Assembly: GCF_009649845.1 (NCBI RefSeq)
Contig: NZ_WJIE01000017.1
Coordinates: 62,001-126,000, forward strand
Source of the DNA: Polyangium spumosum
GTDB lineage: Bacteria; Myxococcota_A; Polyangia; Polyangiales; Polyangiaceae
Direction of reading: 5' to 3'
DNA: 64,000 bases
In this document: positions 8,777 through 18,752 of the stretch, piece by piece
Position numbering within the stretch: position 1 is the first letter of the stretch
How the letters are laid out: every line of letters begins with the position of its first letter
The notes under the pieces: model-generated
The model's input: the letters and a program-made list of their open reading frames with translations, nothing else
Databases searched by the model: none
What the model was told of the DNA's origin: nothing
Made by a program: the position numbers and the translations under genes

Positions 8777-9796
8777 ATGGTACCGACCTTCCTCGCGCGG
8801 CTCGCCGATCCCTCCATCGAGACCGTCCTCGTCTGCGGCTGCGGCGGCGGCTTCGATTTCTTGCAAGGCGCGACGCTCCTGCCCGAGCTCGAGCGGCTCG
8901 GCAAGCGCGTCGTCCTCGGCAGTTATTCGTTCGGGGAGCCCGAGCGCATCGACGACGCGCCCGTCGTGTTCACGGCCGAGACCGGCGCCGTCGTCAAGCG
9001 TGTCCTCGGGCATTCGATCCCCCCGCCCGATTACGGCCCGGAGGTGCACCTCGCGAGCTTCCTCGACCAGGAGCGCCCCGAGGGCGCGCCGCATTTCGTC
9101 TACGCCTATTATGCCCGCGCCTTCACCGTGCCCGCCCTCCGCGCCTTTTACGCCGAGCTCGTCCGGCGCCACGACATCGACGCCGTGATCCTCGTCGACG
9201 GGGGCTCGGATTCGCTCATGCGCGGCGACGAGGAGGGGCTCGGCGATCCGATCGAGGACGCGGTCTCGGTCGGGGCGGTGGCCGAGCTCGAAGGCTTGAA
9301 GCTCAAGCTGCTGCTCTCGATCGGCCTCGGCGCCGACCGTTTTAATGGTGTCTCCGACGCGGCCAGCCTGCGCGCCGTCGCCGAGCTCACCGAGGCCGGC
9401 GGTTACCTCGGCGCCGTGAGCCTCGAGCCGACGAGCCCGGGGTTTACGTTCTACAAGCGCTGCGTCGAGCACGTATATGCGAACCAGACGTTCCGCTCGG
9501 CGCTCACCGGCTTCATTTTATCGGCGACCGAGGGGCATTACGGCGGCGAGCTCGTGCCGCCCGCCTTGCGCAGCCGCGTCAGCCCCGGCCGGTTCTTCGT
9601 CTGGCCGCTCATGGCCATGATCTGGGCCTTCGACGTGGAGGCCGTGGCGCGCCGCTCGAAGATCGTCGGCTGGATCCGCGAATGCACCACCGTGCGTGAT
9701 TGCCACCTCGCGCTCCGCCGCGGCCGCGACCTGCTCGCGGAGGGCCCGCGCGAGGTGGAGAACCTGCCGCGGCAGGAGGACATGGTCGGTTATTGA
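8777..9796 (+). CDS. DUF1152 family protein
   Basis: The 339-residue product matches the DUF1152 pattern known from bacteria and archaea: an N-terminal VCGCGGGFDFLQG (about 19-31) that looks like a nucleotide- or phosphate-binding glycine loop, an internal VDGGSDSLMRGDEEGLGDP (about 144-162), and a conserved core to the end. Biochemical function is not established for the family. ATG 8777 starts shortly before the first conserved strand. It follows sdhB by 33 nt, so readthrough from the sdh operon is possible. It ends with a 7-bp overlap with the convergent STAS gene. Confidence 0.8.
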   Translation: MVPTFLARLADPSIETVLVCGCGGGFDFLQGATLLPELERLGKRVVLGSYSFGEPERIDDAPVVFTAETGAVVKRVLGHSIPPPDYGPEVHLASFLDQERPEGAPHFVYAYYARAFTVPALRAFYAELVRRHDIDAVILVDGGSDSLMRGDEEGLGDPIEDAVSVGAVAELEGLKLKLLLSIGLGADRFNGVSDAASLRAVAELTEAGGYLGAVSLEPTSPGFTFYKRCVEHVYANQTFRSALTGFILSATEGHYGGELVPPALRSRVSPGRFFVWPLMAMIWAFDVEAVARRSKIVGWIRECTTVRDCHLALRRGRDLLAEGPREVENLPRQEDMVGY

Positions 9797-11028
9797 GTCG
9801 GCGTGGCGAGGCCGCGCTTCTCCTCCGCCATCCGGCGAATGCAGAGCCGGAGCCCCTCCCGCAGGTTCGCGCACGTCGTCAAGCTCGACAGGTCGAGCCC
9901 GAGCGTCACCATCGTCTGCGCCACCGTGGGCCGGATCCCCGTGACGATCCCCTCCGCGCCGAGCAGCCGGATCGCGCGAAGCAGGCTGAAGATGTGGCTC
10001 GCCGTCATCGTGTCGACCATATCGACGCCGGTCAAATCCAGGATCGCGAAGCGCGCCGAGGTCCGCACGACCGTCGCGAGCAGGTCGTCCATCACGCGCG
10101 CCACGCGCTGGCTGTCGACGACGCCCATCATCGGCAGCGTGATCACCTTCTCCCAGACCTGGATCACCGGCGTCTCGAGGTTCCGGATGACCTCCTCCTG
10201 CCGCTCGATGAGCTCCATCTTCACCCGCAGCTCGGCCAGGGCTTTCGCCACGTCGTTTTTCGCGAGCGTCACGCCGAGCATCACCGGGATCTCGCCATTT
10301 TCGTCCTGCATGGGGAGGAAAATGCTCTCCCACAGGATGTCGTGGGCCTCGGTCGCCACGCGGACCGGCTCTCCGGCGAGCGCGCGCTTGATACTCAGCA
10401 CGCCCTCCTGCTCGGGCCCATACAGATCGACCACGCTCGTCCCCACGAGCTGCCCGGGCTCGAATCCGCCCGTTCGGCACCCTTTGCCGTCCTGCATCAC
10501 GTACATGCAATTCTGATCGATCAAATAAGCCGAGATGTCCAGGTGATCGAGGATGGCGCGGAGCACGCGCTCGGGCGCGGTCGGGGGCAAGGAGGCGAGG
10601 TCCTCGGCCGGGGGCACGACCAGCCGACCCGCGGAGATTCGCGGCGTGGGGACGATGGTCACGTAGATCTCGGCCCCGCCCGGCGCGCGCCGCGCGCTCA
10701 GGGAAAAGGAGCGATACGCGCCCGCGGCATCACGAATCTGGCACGCGGCGCCAAAGTCCTCGCCTTCGGCCATTCGCGCCCACGCCGAGGCGACGTTCGC
10801 CTTGTGATCGGGGTGCATGGCCTCGAAGAGCGAGCCGCCTCGTACGCGCTCGGCCCCGAGGACCCGCTCGGCCTCTGGATTGAAGCCGCCGATCGCGCCT
10901 TCCGGGTTCGTGGCAAGAAAGACACCCGGGCAATGCTGGAACCAAGCCGAATCCATTACGCACTCCGCGACCGAGGAGACGAGCGATGATTCGAATATCA
11001 CGACCGTATCATCGAGGTCGAGCCCCAA
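9790..11028 (-). CDS. PAS-PAS-STAS sensor, RsbR (stressosome) family
   Basis: RsbR-type proteins form stressosome complexes that relay stress to RsbT-like kinases. This 412-residue protein has two PAS-like sensor regions (about 25-130 and 155-265), a short helical linker, and a C-terminal STAS domain (about 285-400). The STAS domain keeps the B. subtilis RsbR pattern LDLTGVDMVDT and TGIRPTVAQTMV, including both threonines phosphorylated in RsbR. MYVMQDGKGC in the second PAS contains Cys and Met that could matter for sensing, which is speculative. A Met at residue 25 (MDSAWFQH) is an alternative start. No RsbS or RsbT gene is adjacent. It is one of three RsbR-type proteins in the window. Confidence 0.85.
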   Translation of the reverse strand: MGLDLDDTVVIFESSLVSSVAECVMDSAWFQHCPGVFLATNPEGAIGGFNPEAERVLGAERVRGGSLFEAMHPDHKANVASAWARMAEGEDFGAACQIRDAAGAYRSFSLSARRAPGGAEIYVTIVPTPRISAGRLVVPPAEDLASLPPTAPERVLRAILDHLDISAYLIDQNCMYVMQDGKGCRTGGFEPGQLVGTSVVDLYGPEQEGVLSIKRALAGEPVRVATEAHDILWESIFLPMQDENGEIPVMLGVTLAKNDVAKALAELRVKMELIERQEEVIRNLETPVIQVWEKVITLPMMGVVDSQRVARVMDDLLATVVRTSARFAILDLTGVDMVDTMTASHIFSLLRAIRLLGAEGIVTGIRPTVAQTMVTLGLDLSSLTTCANLREGLRLCIRRMAEEKRGLATPTQ

Positions 11029-12024: not shown

Positions 12025-12393
12025 GTGGACTGGTTCTGGGCATTCGTCTTCACGCAGGTCGTCGAGATCCCCATTTACATCTACGGCCTGCGCGTCCGCG
12101 CCTACGAGGCCTTCGGCGCGAGCGCCCTGACGCACCCGATCGTCTGGTTCGTCATCCCGGCGCTGTGGGAGCGCCTCTACCTCGCCGTCTTCGCGCCGCA
12201 CCCCTCGTTATGGATCGCGCAGACGCCGCGATACTGGATCATGGTGGTCATCGCGGAGACGTTCGCCGTGACCGCGGAGGCGGGGTATTTCCATTTCATC
12301 GGCAAGAAGAAGGCGCTGCGGTGGACCTTCGCGGCGAACATGGCGAGCGTCACCCTGGGGTTGGCGAGCCGCGCGATCTTCGATTGGCCGTGA
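12025..12393 (+). CDS. Small integral membrane protein, unknown
   Basis: A 122-residue protein with four predicted hydrophobic segments (about 3-23, 35-57, 70-92 and 99-118) and charged loops such as GKKKALRW. It begins with GTG at 12025, 3 nt after the stop of the MYXO-CTERM-like gene; translational coupling is likely. Nothing in the sequence identifies a transporter or enzyme family. The pairing with a surface-anchored protein may mean a shared envelope role, but that is inference. Confidence 0.7.
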   Translation: MDWFWAFVFTQVVEIPIYIYGLRVRAYEAFGASALTHPIVWFVIPALWERLYLAVFAPHPSLWIAQTPRYWIMVVIAETFAVTAEAGYFHFIGKKKALRWTFAANMASVTLGLASRAIFDWP

Positions 12394-12427
12394 CCGCCGG
12401 ACGAGCGCCCTGACAAACCTCGACGCC

Positions 12428-13126
12428 TCAGGCCTCGCCCGGCCCTCTTCGAGGAGGTCCGCCGCCGAACGAGGCCTCGGCGCCCGGCTCCGGCGGGGCC
12501 TCGTGGCCCGTGCCGTAGGCGCGCAGGAAGGCCTCGACGTGCTCGTCGGCGAATTTCTCCCAATCGAGCGGGCGCGCCTTCGTCCCGCCGAGCGGGCCTT
12601 GATGCAGGAGCGCGAGCAGGGGCGGCGAGGCCAGCGCGAGCGCCATTTGCCGCACGTCCCCCGCCCGGAGCTCGCCCCGCGCGACGTGCCGGGCGAGCCG
12701 CGCCTCGACGCATTCGAGCGTCGGATCGAGCACCTCGCAGAGGTATCTCGGGCCGAGCGTGGGCTCACGCAGGCCGCAGGCGAGGCCAATCGCGTGCACC
12801 TCGCCGACGCCGCTGCGGAAGCCGAGCTCGAGATAAAACAAAAACCCCCGGAGCGACGCGCGGACGGGAAGGAGCGGGCCCGTCGCGACCTCCAGGAGGT
12901 ACCGCTGCCCCCGCTCGTGCCAGTGCGAGAGCACGGCCGCGATGACACCCTCGCGCGAGCCGAAATAGTGCCGCAGCGTCGCCACGCTCACCCCCGCGGA
13001 CGCCGCCATTTCGCGAAAACTCACGCGCACGCCGTCGGGCGCCGAGAGCCGCCTCTGCACGGCGGCGACCAGCGACGCGCGGGTCGCCTCGAAGTCCGGG
13101 TTGCGTGAGCCTGCGGGCCTGCCCAT
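12428..13126 (-). CDS. TetR family transcriptional regulator
   Basis: The N-terminal helix-turn-helix is recognisable: FREMAASAGVSVATLRHYFGSREGVIAAV (about 38-66, shown in two parts by the HTH and recognition helix VATLRHYFG). TetR proteins repress nearby genes and release DNA on binding a ligand through the C-terminal helical domain, here about 70-205. The last 25 residues are Gly/Pro-rich and probably disordered. It is divergent from the two Rieske-related genes, with 136 nt between starts that contain an inverted repeat at 13236-13250, so it probably controls them and itself. The ligand is unknown. Confidence 0.88.
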   Translation of the reverse strand: MGRPAGSRNPDFEATRASLVAAVQRRLSAPDGVRVSFREMAASAGVSVATLRHYFGSREGVIAAVLSHWHERGQRYLLEVATGPLLPVRASLRGFLFYLELGFRSGVGEVHAIGLACGLREPTLGPRYLCEVLDPTLECVEARLARHVARGELRAGDVRQMALALASPPLLALLHQGPLGGTKARPLDWEKFADEHVEAFLRAYGTGHEAPPEPGAEASFGGGPPRRGPGEA

Positions 13127-13262: not shown

Positions 13263-13931
13263 ATGTTCGAGGGCTTCGCGAACGTCTGGACGCCGGTCCT
13301 CTCGGCGCGGGATCTGCGCGACGAGGCGCGTCGTGTTCGGGTGGCCGGAGAGGCGATCGTGCTCTTCCGCGACGAGGGCGGCGAGCCGGGGGCGCGCCTG
13401 GATCGCCCTTCGCCGTCCGAGGTGGTCGCGGTGGAGGAGCGCTTGCCCGCGCGCGAGGCCCTCAGCCTCGTCTGGATCTTCACGGGCCACGAGGCCCCGC
13501 CCGAGGGGCCGACCTTGCCTTCGATCGATCCGGTGCGGCCCCTCGTGATCCACGCCGAGACCTGGCCCGCGCCCTTTTCGCGCGTGGTCTCCGCCCTGCA
13601 AGACCCGGCGAACCTGCCCTTCACGTGGGCGCTCGGCGACGCGCCTGCCGAGCGCGCGCTCGAGTTTCACGCGCCCGGCTGCATCGAGTATTTTCTGCCC
13701 CCGCGCGCGAGCGAGAAGCGCACGCTCGTCTACTGTTTCCCCGAGTCCGAGCGGGCCACGCGTGTCCTCTTCTGCGCCACACGCGCGCCGGGCGACGGGC
13801 CCGTTCCGTCCTGGATCACCGAGTATTTCGCGGCGACGGACCTCGCCCGCGAGCGCGCCTGCGAACCCACCACGGTGAGCTCCGGCGGGGGCTTGACGAA
13901 GACGCTGCGTTTCTTAGAGCACTCGATGTAA
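13263..13931 (+). CDS. Rieske oxygenase paralog lacking both metal sites
   Basis: The 222-residue product is clearly related to the adjacent Rieske oxygenase: it begins MFEGFANVWTPVLSARDL against FESFANVWTPVITAREL, and both genes share ACAAAACGGAGG just before their starts, pointing to tandem duplication. Where the neighbour has CPHRG and CPFHGW, this protein has no Cys-x-His or Cys-x2-His. The mononuclear iron motif DMPHLPFIH has become DPANLPFTW. It should therefore bind neither the [2Fe-2S] cluster nor catalytic iron. It may be a structural or regulatory partner, or a decaying copy, but the frame is intact. The strong GGAGG before ATG 13263 argues for expression. Residue count and alignment are by eye. 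Confidence 0.75.
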   Translation: MFEGFANVWTPVLSARDLRDEARRVRVAGEAIVLFRDEGGEPGARLDRPSPSEVVAVEERLPAREALSLVWIFTGHEAPPEGPTLPSIDPVRPLVIHAETWPAPFSRVVSALQDPANLPFTWALGDAPAERALEFHAPGCIEYFLPPRASEKRTLVYCFPESERATRVLFCATRAPGDGPVPSWITEYFAATDLARERACEPTTVSSGGGLTKTLRFLEHSM

Positions 13932-13947
13932 CAAAACGGAGGCCACC

Positions 13948-15000
13948 GTGTTCGAGAGCTTCGCCAACGTCTGGACCCCGGTCATCACCGCCAGAGAGCT
14001 CGGAAAAAAGCCACGCTCGGTGAAGGTCGCCGGCGAGACGCTCGCCCTCTTCCGCGACGGCAAGGGCGGCGTGGGCGCGCTCGTCGATCGGTGCCCGCAC
14101 CGGGGCGTCGCGCTCTCGCTCGGCCAGGTCAACGCGGACGGTTGCCTCGCTTGCCCCTTCCACGGCTGGGCATTCCAGAAGGACGGCGCCTGCACGAAGG
14201 TCCCACTGAACACGATTTCTGCGGAGAAACGCGCTCGTTTTGGCGCGACGGCCGTGCCCGTGCGGGAGGTCGGCCATCTCGTCTGGGTCTTCACCGGGCC
14301 CGACCCCGCCGGCACCGAGCCCGAGCCGCCGCCCGCGCTCGTCGAGCCGGGGTGGCACGTCGGATACAATCAGGAGATCTGGAAGACGCACTGGACGCGG
14401 GCCATGGAGAACATGCTCGACATGCCGCACCTGCCGTTCATCCACGGAAAGAGCATCGGCCGGGAGCTCAAGCAAAAGATGACGCCGGATACGCGGCTCG
14501 ACGTGCGGATCGAGCCGGCGCCCTTCGGCGGCCGGATCTTCTCGAAATGGGACCACGAGCCGGCCGAGGTGGAGATCCTCGAGTGGCGCAAGCCAAACGC
14601 GATGGAGCTGCACATCATGGACGGGGCGAAGCGCAAGATGTACCTGCACGTCTATTGCATCCCGATCGACGAGGGCCACACGAAGATGCTCGTCGCCTCG
14701 GCGCGGACGTTCTTCGGCTCGCAGGTGTTCACCTGGATCGCGACGAGGTTCAACAACGTCCTCGGCGAGGATCGCGCCGTCCTCGAGACCTCGAGCCCGC
14801 TCGAGGTGCCGCCGCCGGGCGAGGAGCCGTCCGTCGCGACCGACGCGCCGACGCTTTATTTCCGCAAGTATTACTTCCGCGAGCTGCGCGGCTCCACGAC
14901 GACGCTCGTGCCCACGGGCCGGCTCGTCCGCAAGGCCGACGCGCCCCAGCCCGAAGCCGAAGAAGCGGGCATGCCCGACGGTGCGGCGGCCGTCCACTGA
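13948..15000 (+). CDS. Rieske [2Fe-2S] domain oxygenase
   Basis: A 350-residue terminal oxygenase of the Rieske non-heme iron type. The N-terminal Rieske domain has C49-P-H51 and C69-P-F-H72 ligands, with FHGWAF following. The C-terminal catalytic domain has NMLDMPHLPFIHG, which fits D-x2-H-x4-H for mononuclear iron. Such enzymes hydroxylate, demethylate or desaturate aromatic, steroid or alicyclic substrates with a reductase and ferredoxin, none of which is adjacent. It starts with GTG 13948 after GGAGG, 16 nt behind its metal-less paralog, so the two are one operon, likely under the divergent TetR. Substrate unknown. Confidence 0.9.
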   Translation: MFESFANVWTPVITARELGKKPRSVKVAGETLALFRDGKGGVGALVDRCPHRGVALSLGQVNADGCLACPFHGWAFQKDGACTKVPLNTISAEKRARFGATAVPVREVGHLVWVFTGPDPAGTEPEPPPALVEPGWHVGYNQEIWKTHWTRAMENMLDMPHLPFIHGKSIGRELKQKMTPDTRLDVRIEPAPFGGRIFSKWDHEPAEVEILEWRKPNAMELHIMDGAKRKMYLHVYCIPIDEGHTKMLVASARTFFGSQVFTWIATRFNNVLGEDRAVLETSSPLEVPPPGEEPSVATDAPTLYFRKYYFRELRGSTTTLVPTGRLVRKADAPQPEAEEAGMPDGAAAVH

Positions 15001-15060: not shown

Positions 15061-16929
15061 GTGAGCTCGCCTGCACCCGAACAGAATCCGCTCCGTCGCG
15101 CCACCATCCCGCATTTGCCCGCGCTCGACGGGCTGCGAGGGCTCGCCGTGCTCGGCGTGCTCCTCTTCCACGATGGCAGGCTCGACGGCGGTTATCTCGG
15201 CGTCGACCTGTTCTTCGTCCTGTCGGGATATCTCATCCACTCGCTCTTGCTCGCGGAGTGGAGCAAGACGGGGACGATCGATCTCAAGGCTTTCTGGGTG
15301 CGCCGCGCGCGCCGCCTTTTCCCGGCGCTCCTCGCGCTCCTGCCCGTGGTCGCGGCCTACGCGTACTGGCTCGCCAGGCCGGAGGAGCTCGATCGGATCC
15401 GCAAGGACGGCCTCGCCACGCTGGCGTACGTGGCGAACTGGCGCGCGATTTTTTCGGGGCGGAGCTACTGGGACATGTTCCAGGCCCCGTCGCCGCTCGA
15501 GCACACCTGGAGCCTCGCGATCGAGGAGCAATTCTACGTCGTCTGGCCGCTCCTCGCGTTCGGGGTCCTTCATCTCGCGCGGGGCTCGCGGCGCGTGATG
15601 CTCGCCGTCGCGCTCGGCCTCGCCCTGCTCTCGGGCGCGGCCATGGTTTGGCTGGGCACGCGGGCGGACACGGCCCGCGCGTACATGGGCACGGATACAC
15701 GCGGGGTGGCGATCCTGCTCGGCGCCGCGCTCGCGTGCCTGATGGCCGAGCGGGGGCCGTCGAAGGATCCGCGCGTCGTCCGGGCGCTCGACGGGCTCGG
15801 CGTTCTCGCGGCGGCGGCCCTCGCGTTCGCGTGGGTGAAGCTCGACGGGCAAAACCCGCTGCTCTACCGCGGAGGTTTTTTCGCCACCGAGCTCTGCGTG
15901 CTCGTGCTCATCACGTGCGCGGCGCACGGCGAGAGGAGCCTCGTCGCGCGCGCGCTCTCGTTCCGCCCGCTGGCCTGGGTGGGGCTCGTGAGTTACGGGC
16001 TCTACCTCTTTCACTGGCCGATCTACGTGGTGCTGCGGCCGGAGCGGCTGGGTTTGTCGGGGCTGCTTTCGTCGGCCTTGCGGTACGTGGCGACGTTCGG
16101 GGTGACGCTCGTGTCGTACCATTTCCTCGAGCAGCCGATCCGCAAGCGTGGCGCGCCGCTCGGGCGGCCGGCGCTCTCGCTCTCGTCGTCGGTGGCGCTT
16201 TGCGTCGGGGCGCTGGTGGTCGGGACGCAGCATCGAGCGGTGATGCGGATCGGGCTGCAGCTCTTGCCCTGGCCGGCGCCCGAGAATGCGGTGAAAATCC
16301 TGGTGGTCGGCGACTCCGCCGCGCAATCGCTCGGCGAGCGGATGCACGCGGTGCAATCCGGCACGGGGACGATCGTGTTCGAGAAGGGCACGCCCGATTG
16401 CAGCATCATGGAAGGCAGGCGGCCGGCGCGGTCGCTCACGAACGTGCCTCACGCGGGAGGGCCCTGCGACGCGCGCTGGGCGAGCGACGCGGACGAGCTC
16501 CACCCCGACGTGACGCTCGTGCTGCTCGGCGGCGGTTTTTACGCGCGCGTGGAGCTCGACGGCCGCTGGCAACGTATCTGCGATCCAGCCTGGGACGCGG
16601 CGTATGCCGAGGTGCTCGGGGACCAGCTCGTGAAACTCGCCGGCAAGACCCAAAGGCTGTACGTCGCGCGTATCCCCCCACCGGTGGGCGGCTGGGACAA
16701 ACCGGAGCTCGCAGGGCAGGTCGCCTGTTTCAACCGGCTCATCGAGAAGGCGGCAGAGCGCGACAAACGTATCCACGTGCTCGACCTCGCAGGGAGGTTG
16801 TGCCCGGGCGGGGTGTGCACGCTCGTGAATGAAGGCGAGCCGATCCGGCCGGATGGAATGCATTTTGGTGGGCCGGGGGCGAAGGAGATCGCGCGGTGGG
16901 TGATCGAGCAGGTCAAGCAGCCGCGATAG
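15061..16929 (+). CDS. OafA/YrhL-type acyltransferase with SGNH domain
   Basis: This 622-residue membrane protein is of the acyltransferase-3 family fused to an SGNH hydrolase domain, as in enzymes that O-acetylate LPS, peptidoglycan or exopolysaccharide. The N-terminal about 390 residues have some ten hydrophobic helices with the family motifs LPALDGLRGLAVLGVLLFH, GVDLFFVLSGYLI and EHTWSLAIEEQFY. The soluble C-terminal part has GDSAAQS (catalytic Ser) and PDGMHFGG with a D-x-x-H pair. It starts with GTG 15061. The next gene begins inside its last codons (34-nt overlap), suggesting coupling. Confidence 0.9.
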   Translation: MSSPAPEQNPLRRATIPHLPALDGLRGLAVLGVLLFHDGRLDGGYLGVDLFFVLSGYLIHSLLLAEWSKTGTIDLKAFWVRRARRLFPALLALLPVVAAYAYWLARPEELDRIRKDGLATLAYVANWRAIFSGRSYWDMFQAPSPLEHTWSLAIEEQFYVVWPLLAFGVLHLARGSRRVMLAVALGLALLSGAAMVWLGTRADTARAYMGTDTRGVAILLGAALACLMAERGPSKDPRVVRALDGLGVLAAAALAFAWVKLDGQNPLLYRGGFFATELCVLVLITCAAHGERSLVARALSFRPLAWVGLVSYGLYLFHWPIYVVLRPERLGLSGLLSSALRYVATFGVTLVSYHFLEQPIRKRGAPLGRPALSLSSSVALCVGALVVGTQHRAVMRIGLQLLPWPAPENAVKILVVGDSAAQSLGERMHAVQSGTGTIVFEKGTPDCSIMEGRRPARSLTNVPHAGGPCDARWASDADELHPDVTLVLLGGGFYARVELDGRWQRICDPAWDAAYAEVLGDQLVKLAGKTQRLYVARIPPPVGGWDKPELAGQVACFNRLIEKAAERDKRIHVLDLAGRLCPGGVCTLVNEGEPIRPDGMHFGGPGAKEIARWVIEQVKQPR

Positions 16930-18752
16930 GGCTTCTTTTCGCCCTCACCGCCTGCGGCGGCTCCTCCCCGCCCCCCGCGGAGGTGCCCTCCCCTCCGCCC
17001 CCGGCGCCACTCACGCAGGAGCGCATTCAGGCTCTCGTCGCCGAGGTCGCGCACCTGCGCGGATTGCCGCTGCGCGCGGCCGTGCCGGTGTACCTGCTCG
17101 ACGAACCGACCTTCCTCGCGGCCCTGCGCGAGCGGGCCGATCGCAGAGCCGCGGCGGCCGAGGTCGAGGCGCGGACGGCATTTCATCTCGCATTCGACCT
17201 CTTGCCCGACGGAAAGCCAGGCGCCGGGCCGCCGCCGAGCTCCACGCGCGAGGTGCTCGAGGAGCAGGTGCGCGGGTTTTACGATCACGAAAAGAAGATC
17301 ATCGTGGTCCGCGCGTCCCGGCCGCGCACCGAGGCCGAGTCCGAAAAGGAGCGGGCGATCCTCGCCCACGAGATCGAGCACGCGCTGCAGGACCAGAGCT
17401 TCGGGCGGCCCGACGCGCGAGAGCAGGCGACCATGGGCGCCGACGAGGTCCTCGCGTACGGATCGCTGCTCGAAGGCGACGCGATGCTCACGATGTTCGC
17501 GTATCTCGCCTCCGAGCGCGGCGTACCCATGCAGCGGATGGTGCGCAGGGCCGCCGACGTCATGCGCGACGTGCCCGCCGAGAGGTTTGTCGCGAACGAC
17601 GGAGACACAGCGCTGCTTCGCGCCCCGCCCATCGTGCGCGAGCGCCTCCTCTTCCGGTATCACGCCGGAACGGCCATGGTGGCCGAGCTTTATCGCGCAG
17701 GCGGGCTCGATCTCGTCAATCGAATGTTCGTGTCGCCGCCCGTCTCGACCGAGCAGGTGATGCATCCCGAAAAATACCTCGCCGGCGAGCGGCCGGTCGT
17801 GCTCGCCGCGCCGCAGGCGCCCGCGGGGTATCGGCCCCTCGACGAAGGGACGCTCGGCGAGCTCGAGACGCGGGTCGTGCTCGATCGCTGCACCCCGCTC
17901 TCCACGCAGGCCGCCGCGGGCTGGGGCGGCGATCGGTACACGCTGGTCGCGGCGCAGAGCGGCGGCGTGGGGCTGCTCTGGAGCACGGCGTGGGACGCGG
18001 AGAGCGACGCGGTCGAGTTTGTCGCGGCAATTCAATCGAGCCCCGGGTGCCTCCGCGCGCTCTCGCTCGGATCTGCGTCGATCGAGGGCGGGATCGTGGT
18101 GCGCGCCGAGAAGAACCGGGTGGCCGTGGTCCGAGGTTTGGCAGGGCCGCTCGCCGAGGCGTCCGCGCGGCAGATCCTCGAATCGCCGATCGCCGCCCCG
18201 ACGAGCCCGCCCGTGGCCCTGCCCTATCGGCTTCCGCCGCGCGCGCCCTTGCCGAGGCGGGAGCCCGGCTGGCTCGTCGGGCACGATTATTTCAGCCGGT
18301 GGCTCGGGATCGCCGGGCGGATCCCGCTCGGGGTGAACGCGATCGTCGGGCACGAGGGGCTCGAGCTCCGGATCAGCCGCCCCGACGTGCTCGTGAGCGG
18401 GGCCCTCTTCGTGTCGGATCTCGTGACGGCCCCGCGGTTCCAGGAAAAACTCTTCGCGGACGTCGCCGGCGGGCTCGAAAGAGGCGCGGAGGGAAGCCGG
18501 GTCGTGACCGCGAGGACCGGGCCCGTGCCGACGCCGCTCGGGGCCGGGATCGAGAGGTGGTGGACGGTGGGAGAGACGCCGATCTCGGTGCGGGCCGTGA
18601 TGGTCCCGATCTGCGGGGGGACGGGGTCGATCGTGTTTTTGCAATCGTTCCGGGACCCGGACGCGCAGCGGACGCTCGACGGATGGATGCACTCGTTCCG
18701 CTGGAACACGGGCGTGAAGCCGCCCGTGTGCGAGGCGCTCGATCCGCGCTGA
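16896..18752 (+). CDS. HEIEH-motif lipoprotein, putative metalloprotease
   Basis: The 618-residue product has a lipoprotein signal ending in LTAC (Cys20) and a Pro-rich spacer. It then carries AILAHEIEHALQDQ with H158-E159-x-x-H162, the gluzincin-like zinc motif, and SLLEGDAM about 30 residues on could supply a third ligand. The rest (about 260-618) is not recognised; it has no clear transmembrane part. Most likely a periplasmic or surface zinc hydrolase, but a degenerate protease is possible. It starts with GTG 16896, overlapping the acyltransferase by 34 nt. It converges with the epimerase gene. Confidence 0.7.
   Translation: MGDRAGQAAAIGLLFALTACGGSSPPPAEVPSPPPPAPLTQERIQALVAEVAHLRGLPLRAAVPVYLLDEPTFLAALRERADRRAAAAEVEARTAFHLAFDLLPDGKPGAGPPPSSTREVLEEQVRGFYDHEKKIIVVRASRPRTEAESEKERAILAHEIEHALQDQSFGRPDAREQATMGADEVLAYGSLLEGDAMLTMFAYLASERGVPMQRMVRRAADVMRDVPAERFVANDGDTALLRAPPIVRERLLFRYHAGTAMVAELYRAGGLDLVNRMFVSPPVSTEQVMHPEKYLAGERPVVLAAPQAPAGYRPLDEGTLGELETRVVLDRCTPLSTQAAAGWGGDRYTLVAAQSGGVGLLWSTAWDAESDAVEFVAAIQSSPGCLRALSLGSASIEGGIVVRAEKNRVAVVRGLAGPLAEASARQILESPIAAPTSPPVALPYRLPPRAPLPRREPGWLVGHDYFSRWLGIAGRIPLGVNAIVGHEGLELRISRPDVLVSGALFVSDLVTAPRFQEKLFADVAGGLERGAEGSRVVTARTGPVPTPLGAGIERWWTVGETPISVRAVMVPICGGTGSIVFLQSFRDPDAQRTLDGWMHSFRWNTGVKPPVCEALDPR

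Follow-up and report, generated by a model that had tools for sequence, protein, structure and literature searches.

Why would a bacterium keep, beside an intact Rieske oxygenase gene, a shortened copy that has lost both metal centres? The question is raised by two tandem genes of Polyangium spumosum, of a genus of soil bacteria, in a stretch of 64,000 nucleotides that we call the window (contig NZ_WJIE01000017.1, positions 62,001 to 126,000; coordinates below are those of the window). The first gene, P1 (13263..13931, + strand), starts with ATG and encodes 222 residues; the second, P2 (13948..15000, +), starts with GTG after a spacing of 16 bases and encodes 350 residues. Both frames lie at the coordinates first noted for them in an original prediction, which was made from the sequence of the window and proposed that P1 is kept, perhaps as a structural or regulatory subunit. 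We found that P1 has lost the catalytic residues and is yet under purifying selection. It is a metal-less, shortened paralog of P2, with orthologs in five of six Polyangium genomes and a ratio of non-synonymous to synonymous substitution rates (ω) of 0.25–0.32. What this protein does is less certain. The interpretation that we favour, tentatively and at a little under even chances, is that P1, which has turned up in Polyangium alone so far, is a pseudoenzyme and would act as a non-essential partner modulating P2, with both genes presumably under a divergent TetR-type regulator.

P2 carries the cluster motif C-x-H ... C-x2-H as C49-P-H51 ... C69-P-F-H72 (14092..14163, +) and the mononuclear iron motif as D158-x2-H161-x4-H166 (14419..14445, +). 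The four cluster ligands, the three residues of the iron motif and D275, which by its position and from general knowledge we take to be the third (acidic) iron ligand, are invariant in all 13 aligned P2-type proteins. P2 matches the Pfam families Rieske (E = 2e-21) and VanA_C (E = 8.4e-14), and its structure model is nearest to GxtA/SxtT (Foldseek, 5.8e-23 to GxtA), NdmA and dicamba monooxygenase. With both motifs and the fold present, P2 is by prediction a Rieske non-heme iron oxygenase.

P1 is 128 residues shorter. In a single BLASTP comparison it was 27% identical to P2, with 80 gap positions in 283 aligned columns (E = 5e-22). The leader ACAAAACGGAGG, which holds the Shine-Dalgarno sequence, lies before both P1 (13247..13258, +; recognisable, with single-base variants, in all five P1-bearing genomes) and P2 (13931..13942, +). 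Hence, the two genes do share N-terminal sequence, leader and head-to-tail order, as the original prediction had it. Three stretches of P2 are missing from P1. One is the part of the Rieske domain that bears the cluster; the second, of about 40 residues, follows the iron helix; and the third comprises roughly the 65 C-terminal residues. P1 lacks all four cluster ligands because some 42 residues are deleted after R48. In the alignment, a short linker (residues 49–62; 13407..13446, +) replaces the cluster-bearing segment, about residues 49–90 of P2. The iron motif has degenerated to DPANLPFTW (D114-P-A-N117-L-P-F-T-W122; 13602..13628, +), in which the bridging aspartate D114 is retained, one histidine has become asparagine and the other tryptophan. 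A glutamate, E197 (13851..13853, +), aligns with D275. The two histidine replacements and the glutamate are found in all five orthologs, although one of them (G003; see below for the sample) reads DPANLPCTW. The cluster ligands are deleted or replaced in the four aligned P1 copies, and a reading of the fifth, that of G004, found them absent. By its sequence, P1 can thus hold neither a Rieske-type [2Fe-2S] cluster nor mononuclear iron. This agrees with the earlier statement that the second gene alone has C-x-H...C-x2-H and D-x2-H-x4-H, and adds to it the two further deletions, the retained D114 and the glutamate at the third-ligand position.

What P1 has kept is as informative as what it has lost. 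We took the 83 columns that are invariant in the 13 P2-type proteins and counted those retained by all four aligned P1 copies. These keep 16 of the 18 such residues at positions 1–48 and 4 of 5 at positions 96–144, against 4 of 17 in the iron helix (145–171). None of the 18 at positions 49–95 is kept, 16 of them being deleted in all four copies; the counts are 3 of 13 at positions 172–283 and 0 of 12 beyond. On this tally, the Rieske base has held on to its structural residues, whereas those of the active site are gone: the scaffold is kept and the active site is lost. Family searches see little of this. The only Pfam match of P1 up to an E value of 1 is Rieske (E = 0.023, residues 9–44, under the curated cut-off), the NCBIfam match has E = 0.075, and a sequence search of the PDB returned two weak matches only (E = 0.87 and 0.91), to sensor proteins or histidine kinases, which we took as chance. 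The AlphaFold2 model of P1, built from an alignment of 17 rows of which 13 are P2-type, has a predicted local distance difference test score (pLDDT) of 73.4, with 30 residues under 50. It aligns to dicamba monooxygenase (3gke) over 220 of its 222 residues (Z = 18.5, root mean square deviation 3.1). Of the Rieske domain the model retains the structural base, and of the catalytic domain the core sheet; the segment of about 40 residues that P1 lost holds two strands and a helix in the P2 model. Sequence (E = 5e-22 to P2) and model (Z = 18.5) together indicate that P1 shares descent and fold with Rieske oxygenases. We also considered that P1 might be a chance open frame in GC-rich DNA, and rejected this on its homology along the length and its conservation across species.

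The genus sample comprised six Polyangium genomes, that of the window and five others labelled G001–G005. P1 is intact in five of them, just upstream of P2 every time and with identical ligand losses. A homolog search, proposed with the original prediction, thus found both the pairing and the ligand loss conserved in 5/5 P1-bearing genomes. The copy of G004 has a frameshifted C-terminal tail. In the sixth genome, G001, only a remnant is left, within the 319 bases between the TetR gene and P2 (7654–7972 in the reverse complement of locus L065). One piece of 32–71 bases, at 82–91% identity, matches P1 codons within 71–96 of all five other species, and a second piece, 15 bases of the last P1 codons, matches three of the five; no further trace of P1 was seen in this interval. 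These pieces indicate that the species once carried the gene.

Beyond the genus, P1 was not seen. A profile search of the other 102 of 108 genomes of the family, in which the best candidates (at most 27) were scored per genome, gave no full-length match; the partial matches that it gave are consistent with P2-type genes. In a draw of 377 genomes across the phylum (best candidates, at most seven per genome), there were four full-length matches, all from the genus. At 14 of 14 loci with P2-type genes outside the genus (L034–L042 and L071–L075), a search of frames of at least 80 codons at E = 1e-5 found one P2-type match each and no second copy beside it, some of these loci being short (L041 has about 0.8 kb before the P2 gene). 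P2-type genes are far more widespread: at E = 1e-60 we found them in 29 of 289 genomes of the class. An older family of metal-less paralogs was therefore dropped as a candidate, as neither the family, the phylum nor the locus searches retrieved one.

We then asked how P1 evolves, using codon models on 201 codon columns from five species, with the tail after the residues ARERA and columns with at least three gaps omitted. The ω of P1 was 0.245 (F3x4) or 0.323 (F1x4), and ω = 1 was rejected in both cases (twice the log-likelihood difference, 2ΔlnL, of 83.4 and 55.4). The corresponding values were 0.155 and 0.219 for P2, 0.133 and 0.176 for the TetR gene, and 0.142 and 0.207 for the last 590 codons of the acyltransferase gene downstream. 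With IQ-TREE, the values were 0.181 (P1) and 0.112 (P2). In 60 neutral simulations on the fitted tree, ω ranged from 0.77 to 1.40, always above the value observed for P1. Tip by tip, ω = 1 was rejected for the window (0.29), G002 (0.23), G003 (0.34) and G004 (0.27). Along the protein, ω was 0.110 for residues 1–48, 0.385 for residues 49–77, 0.276 for residues 78–124 and 0.555 for the remainder to ARERA (2ΔlnL = 5.5). The three indel sites of P1 before the tail are whole codons. Intergenic differences (65–66 sites, the last 70 bases before P1 being omitted) exceed P1 non-synonymous differences in all 10 species pairs, the synonymous and non-synonymous counts being taken from whole P1 frames; for example, between the window and G002 the differences are 0.333 intergenic, 0.344 synonymous and 0.153 non-synonymous.

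The arrangement of upstream elements suggests how the pair arose. A promoter-like site, TTGACG-16-TACCTT, precedes P1 (13210..13237, +); its TTGACG lies 53–54 bases 5' of the P1 start in 5/5 genomes, while the second hexamer is variable and in G003 the best-scoring pair is elsewhere. Another, TTGACG-16-TAGAGC, precedes P2 and falls within the last P1 codons (13893..13920, +). All six genomes of the genus have TTGACR with TAGARC there, with TTGACG or TTGACA 55–60 bases 5' of P2 and a spacing of 16 in five genomes and 17 in G001, which has lost most of P1 but not this site. Outside the genus, the P2 gene of one genome (G036, locus L071) is preceded by a comparable site (TTGACC ... TAGACC); of the nine upstream stretches from outside the genus that were viewed, the eight others showed none by eye. 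A consensus promoter scan called neither TTGACG site and found one other, probably irrelevant, so we call both sites promoter-like on the strength of their conservation. Since the site of P2 is embedded in the final codons of P1, and a like site and leader precede P1, it seems that the whole P2 transcription unit was duplicated, its promoter and leader together with the gene. The conservation of the C-terminal end of P1 may then be due at least in part to promoter DNA, which would give the frameshifted tail of G004 little weight. In a tree of 24 sequences and 223 columns (the L074 and G004 copies were left out), the stem of P1 is long, with 1.76 substitutions per site; that of the genus P2 has 0.43. 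The attachment of P1 is weakly supported (48 and 44), so the tree does not date the duplication. The TetR-type regulator (12428..13126, - strand; Pfam TetR_N and TetR_C_7) is divergent from the pair. A similar gene adjoins P2 in 4 of the 14 loci outside the genus, where P1 is absent; regulator and oxygenase are therefore probably the older unit, and P1 a later addition.

Several explanations could account for such a gene. The simplest is a decaying duplicate that is still in frame by chance. It would fit a gene found in one genus only, lost in one of six species and with a frameshifted tail in one of the five others, whose ω is above that of P2 and has one tip that does not reject neutrality. 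Yet it is very unlikely, and we rejected it on three grounds: ω = 1 is rejected at 2ΔlnL of 55–83; all 60 neutral simulations gave at least 0.77; and the indels before the tail are whole codons. Non-synonymous differences lower than intergenic ones in 10/10 pairs argue the same way, and the frameshifted tail overlaps the P2 promoter-like site, outside the codon-model tests. The original prediction had named rare, frameshifted or relaxed homologs as the mark of a decaying copy. The first two of these were found in part, as one genus, one loss and one frameshifted tail; the third was not, as selection is purifying. Its claim that P1 is kept is upheld by five intact copies in six genomes, ligand loss in 5/5 and an ω well under 1. 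Least probable of all is that the stretch is kept mainly for a role in cis (spacing, the P2 promoter or translation coupling) while the protein does little. The P2 promoter-like site and leader do lie in and after the last P1 codons. However, protein-like constraint extends over the 201 codon columns without the tail, with its maximum at the extreme 5' end, and the site has survived in G001 the loss of most of P1, so that the rest is dispensable for it.

If the protein matters, it might have acquired a new function, enzymatic or metal-binding, elsewhere on the protein. The long stem branch followed by constraint would suit this, as would three cysteines (C140, C158 and C171) that are invariant in the 4/4 aligned P1 copies. 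We nevertheless consider it improbable: by eye, no conserved candidate catalytic or metal-binding group was recognised in P1, and its only family matches are the weak Rieske-type ones. A less remote but still unlikely reading is that P1 binds a small ligand on its own, making no contact with P2, and serves as carrier, sensor or decoy for a compound that P2 uses or produces. Its model keeps core strands and a helix of the catalytic domain, and the gene adjoins the same divergent regulator as P2. Against this, constraint is lowest in the portion that descends from the catalytic domain (0.555 versus 0.110 at residues 1–48), the opposite of what a conserved pocket would give, and P1 is without the segment that forms two strands and a helix in the P2 model. 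Constraint that is highest in the Rieske base and weakest in the catalytic-core part is more readily explained by contact with a protein than by a ligand pocket. Given the strong constraint on residues 1–48, the Rieske base is our best guess for the contact region.

A partner of P2 is therefore the role that we find plausible, though unproven. In this scenario, P1 would descend from a tandem duplication of the P2 transcription unit; it would have lost both metal centres and kept the scaffold along a long stem before coming under constraint. P1 and P2 would both be made under the same TetR-type regulator, and P1 would bind P2, modulating its assembly, its stability or the docking of its electron donor. 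Rather than filling a place in the trimer, P1 could cap P2, chaperone it or offer another surface.

A number of observations weigh against such a partnership. The G005 tip has an ω of 0.48, for which 1 is not rejected (2ΔlnL = 3.02), and P1 is looser than P2 (2ΔlnL of 4.06 and 5.66 for its higher ω). P2 seems to have its own promoter. The 13 P2-type rows among the 17 lean the P1 model towards that fold. In trimeric Rieske oxygenases, the parts that are deleted in P1 carry the cluster and face the iron site of the neighbour; lacking both the parts of the electron path and the contact lobes, P1 is unlikely to take an ordinary place in the trimer. Finally, P2 manages without it. In G001 the P2 tip has an ω of 0.251 against a background of 0.228 (2ΔlnL = 0.07), i.e. 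its constraint is unchanged without P1, and outside the genus P2-type genes stand without an adjoining P1 in 14/14 loci. These two results mark P1 as an accessory, not an obligate subunit, of P2. The structural subunit of the original prediction, if taken as an obligate one, does not survive a distribution limited to a single genus, a loss that left P2 constraint unchanged and a frameshifted tail.

How does P1 compare with known systems? P2 resembles Rieske alpha subunits (dicamba monooxygenase, SxtT/GxtA, NdmA) in motifs and fold, and the P1 model resembles them in fold, but P1 is without their cluster ligands and iron histidines. Rieske beta subunits are not known to be alpha paralogs. The original prediction had likened P1 to inactive beta subunits; this comparison fails, as sequence and model alike identify P1 as an alpha-type paralog, and up to E = 1 it has no Pfam match to a beta family. 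In the chlorophyllide a oxygenase (CAO) of the alga Micromonas pusilla, the two centres are divided between the chains, one on each. PMC9615114 describes this enzyme as two chains, with a suggested heterodimer, whereas here P2 has both centres and P1 neither. NdmC, in the NdmCDE complex, is presented in PMC4408171 as a non-heme iron monooxygenase without a Rieske cluster, in a multi-protein complex. It keeps the non-heme iron and is itself the oxygenase, whereas P1 lacks both centres, an intact iron site included. The nearest precedents that we found thus have one centre missing only (NdmC) or the two split between chains (algal CAO). No Rieske paralog without either centre stood out in the literature searched, which covered few subscription journals. 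Outside this enzyme class, the prozyme of Trypanosoma brucei is, according to PMC5201418, a catalytically dead paralog that regulates and activates AdoMetDC; its partner binding is proven, whereas that of P1 is our inference. That P1 would be a prozyme-like regulatory subunit of its active twin is possible, and we hold it slightly more loosely than the partner role in general. In Rieske oxygenases, electrons are thought to leave the cluster of one subunit and reach the iron of its neighbour through a bridging aspartate (PMC12445004). A conserved subunit-like protein without a metal site would therefore, if confirmed, be a new way of adjusting these enzymes. P1 is also a clean case, with the natural loss in G001 as a ready control, for asking how the copy of an enzyme turns into a helper without enzymatic function.

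Downstream of P2, a gene for an acyltransferase-3 plus SGNH protein (15061..16929, +) is present in 6/6 genomes of the genus, with no demonstrated link to the pair. It is followed in the window by a 618-residue protein (16896–18752) with a weak match, under the curated cut-off, to the putative metallopeptidase family DUF6782; the frame at its place in G002 has the same weak match. On the other side lies a protein with PAS plus STAS domains (9790–11028, -), which shows 74–77% identity in the three relatives whose fetched stretch included it. A 122-residue protein (12025–12393) has no Pfam match at E = 0.01 and is 89–90% identical across the five other genomes of the genus. Between its gene and the TetR gene (12393–12428 in the window), G002–G005 have a frame of about 1180 residues, which the window and G001 lack at this place. 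The copy of G002, the one that we scanned, is a protein kinase with WD40 repeats.
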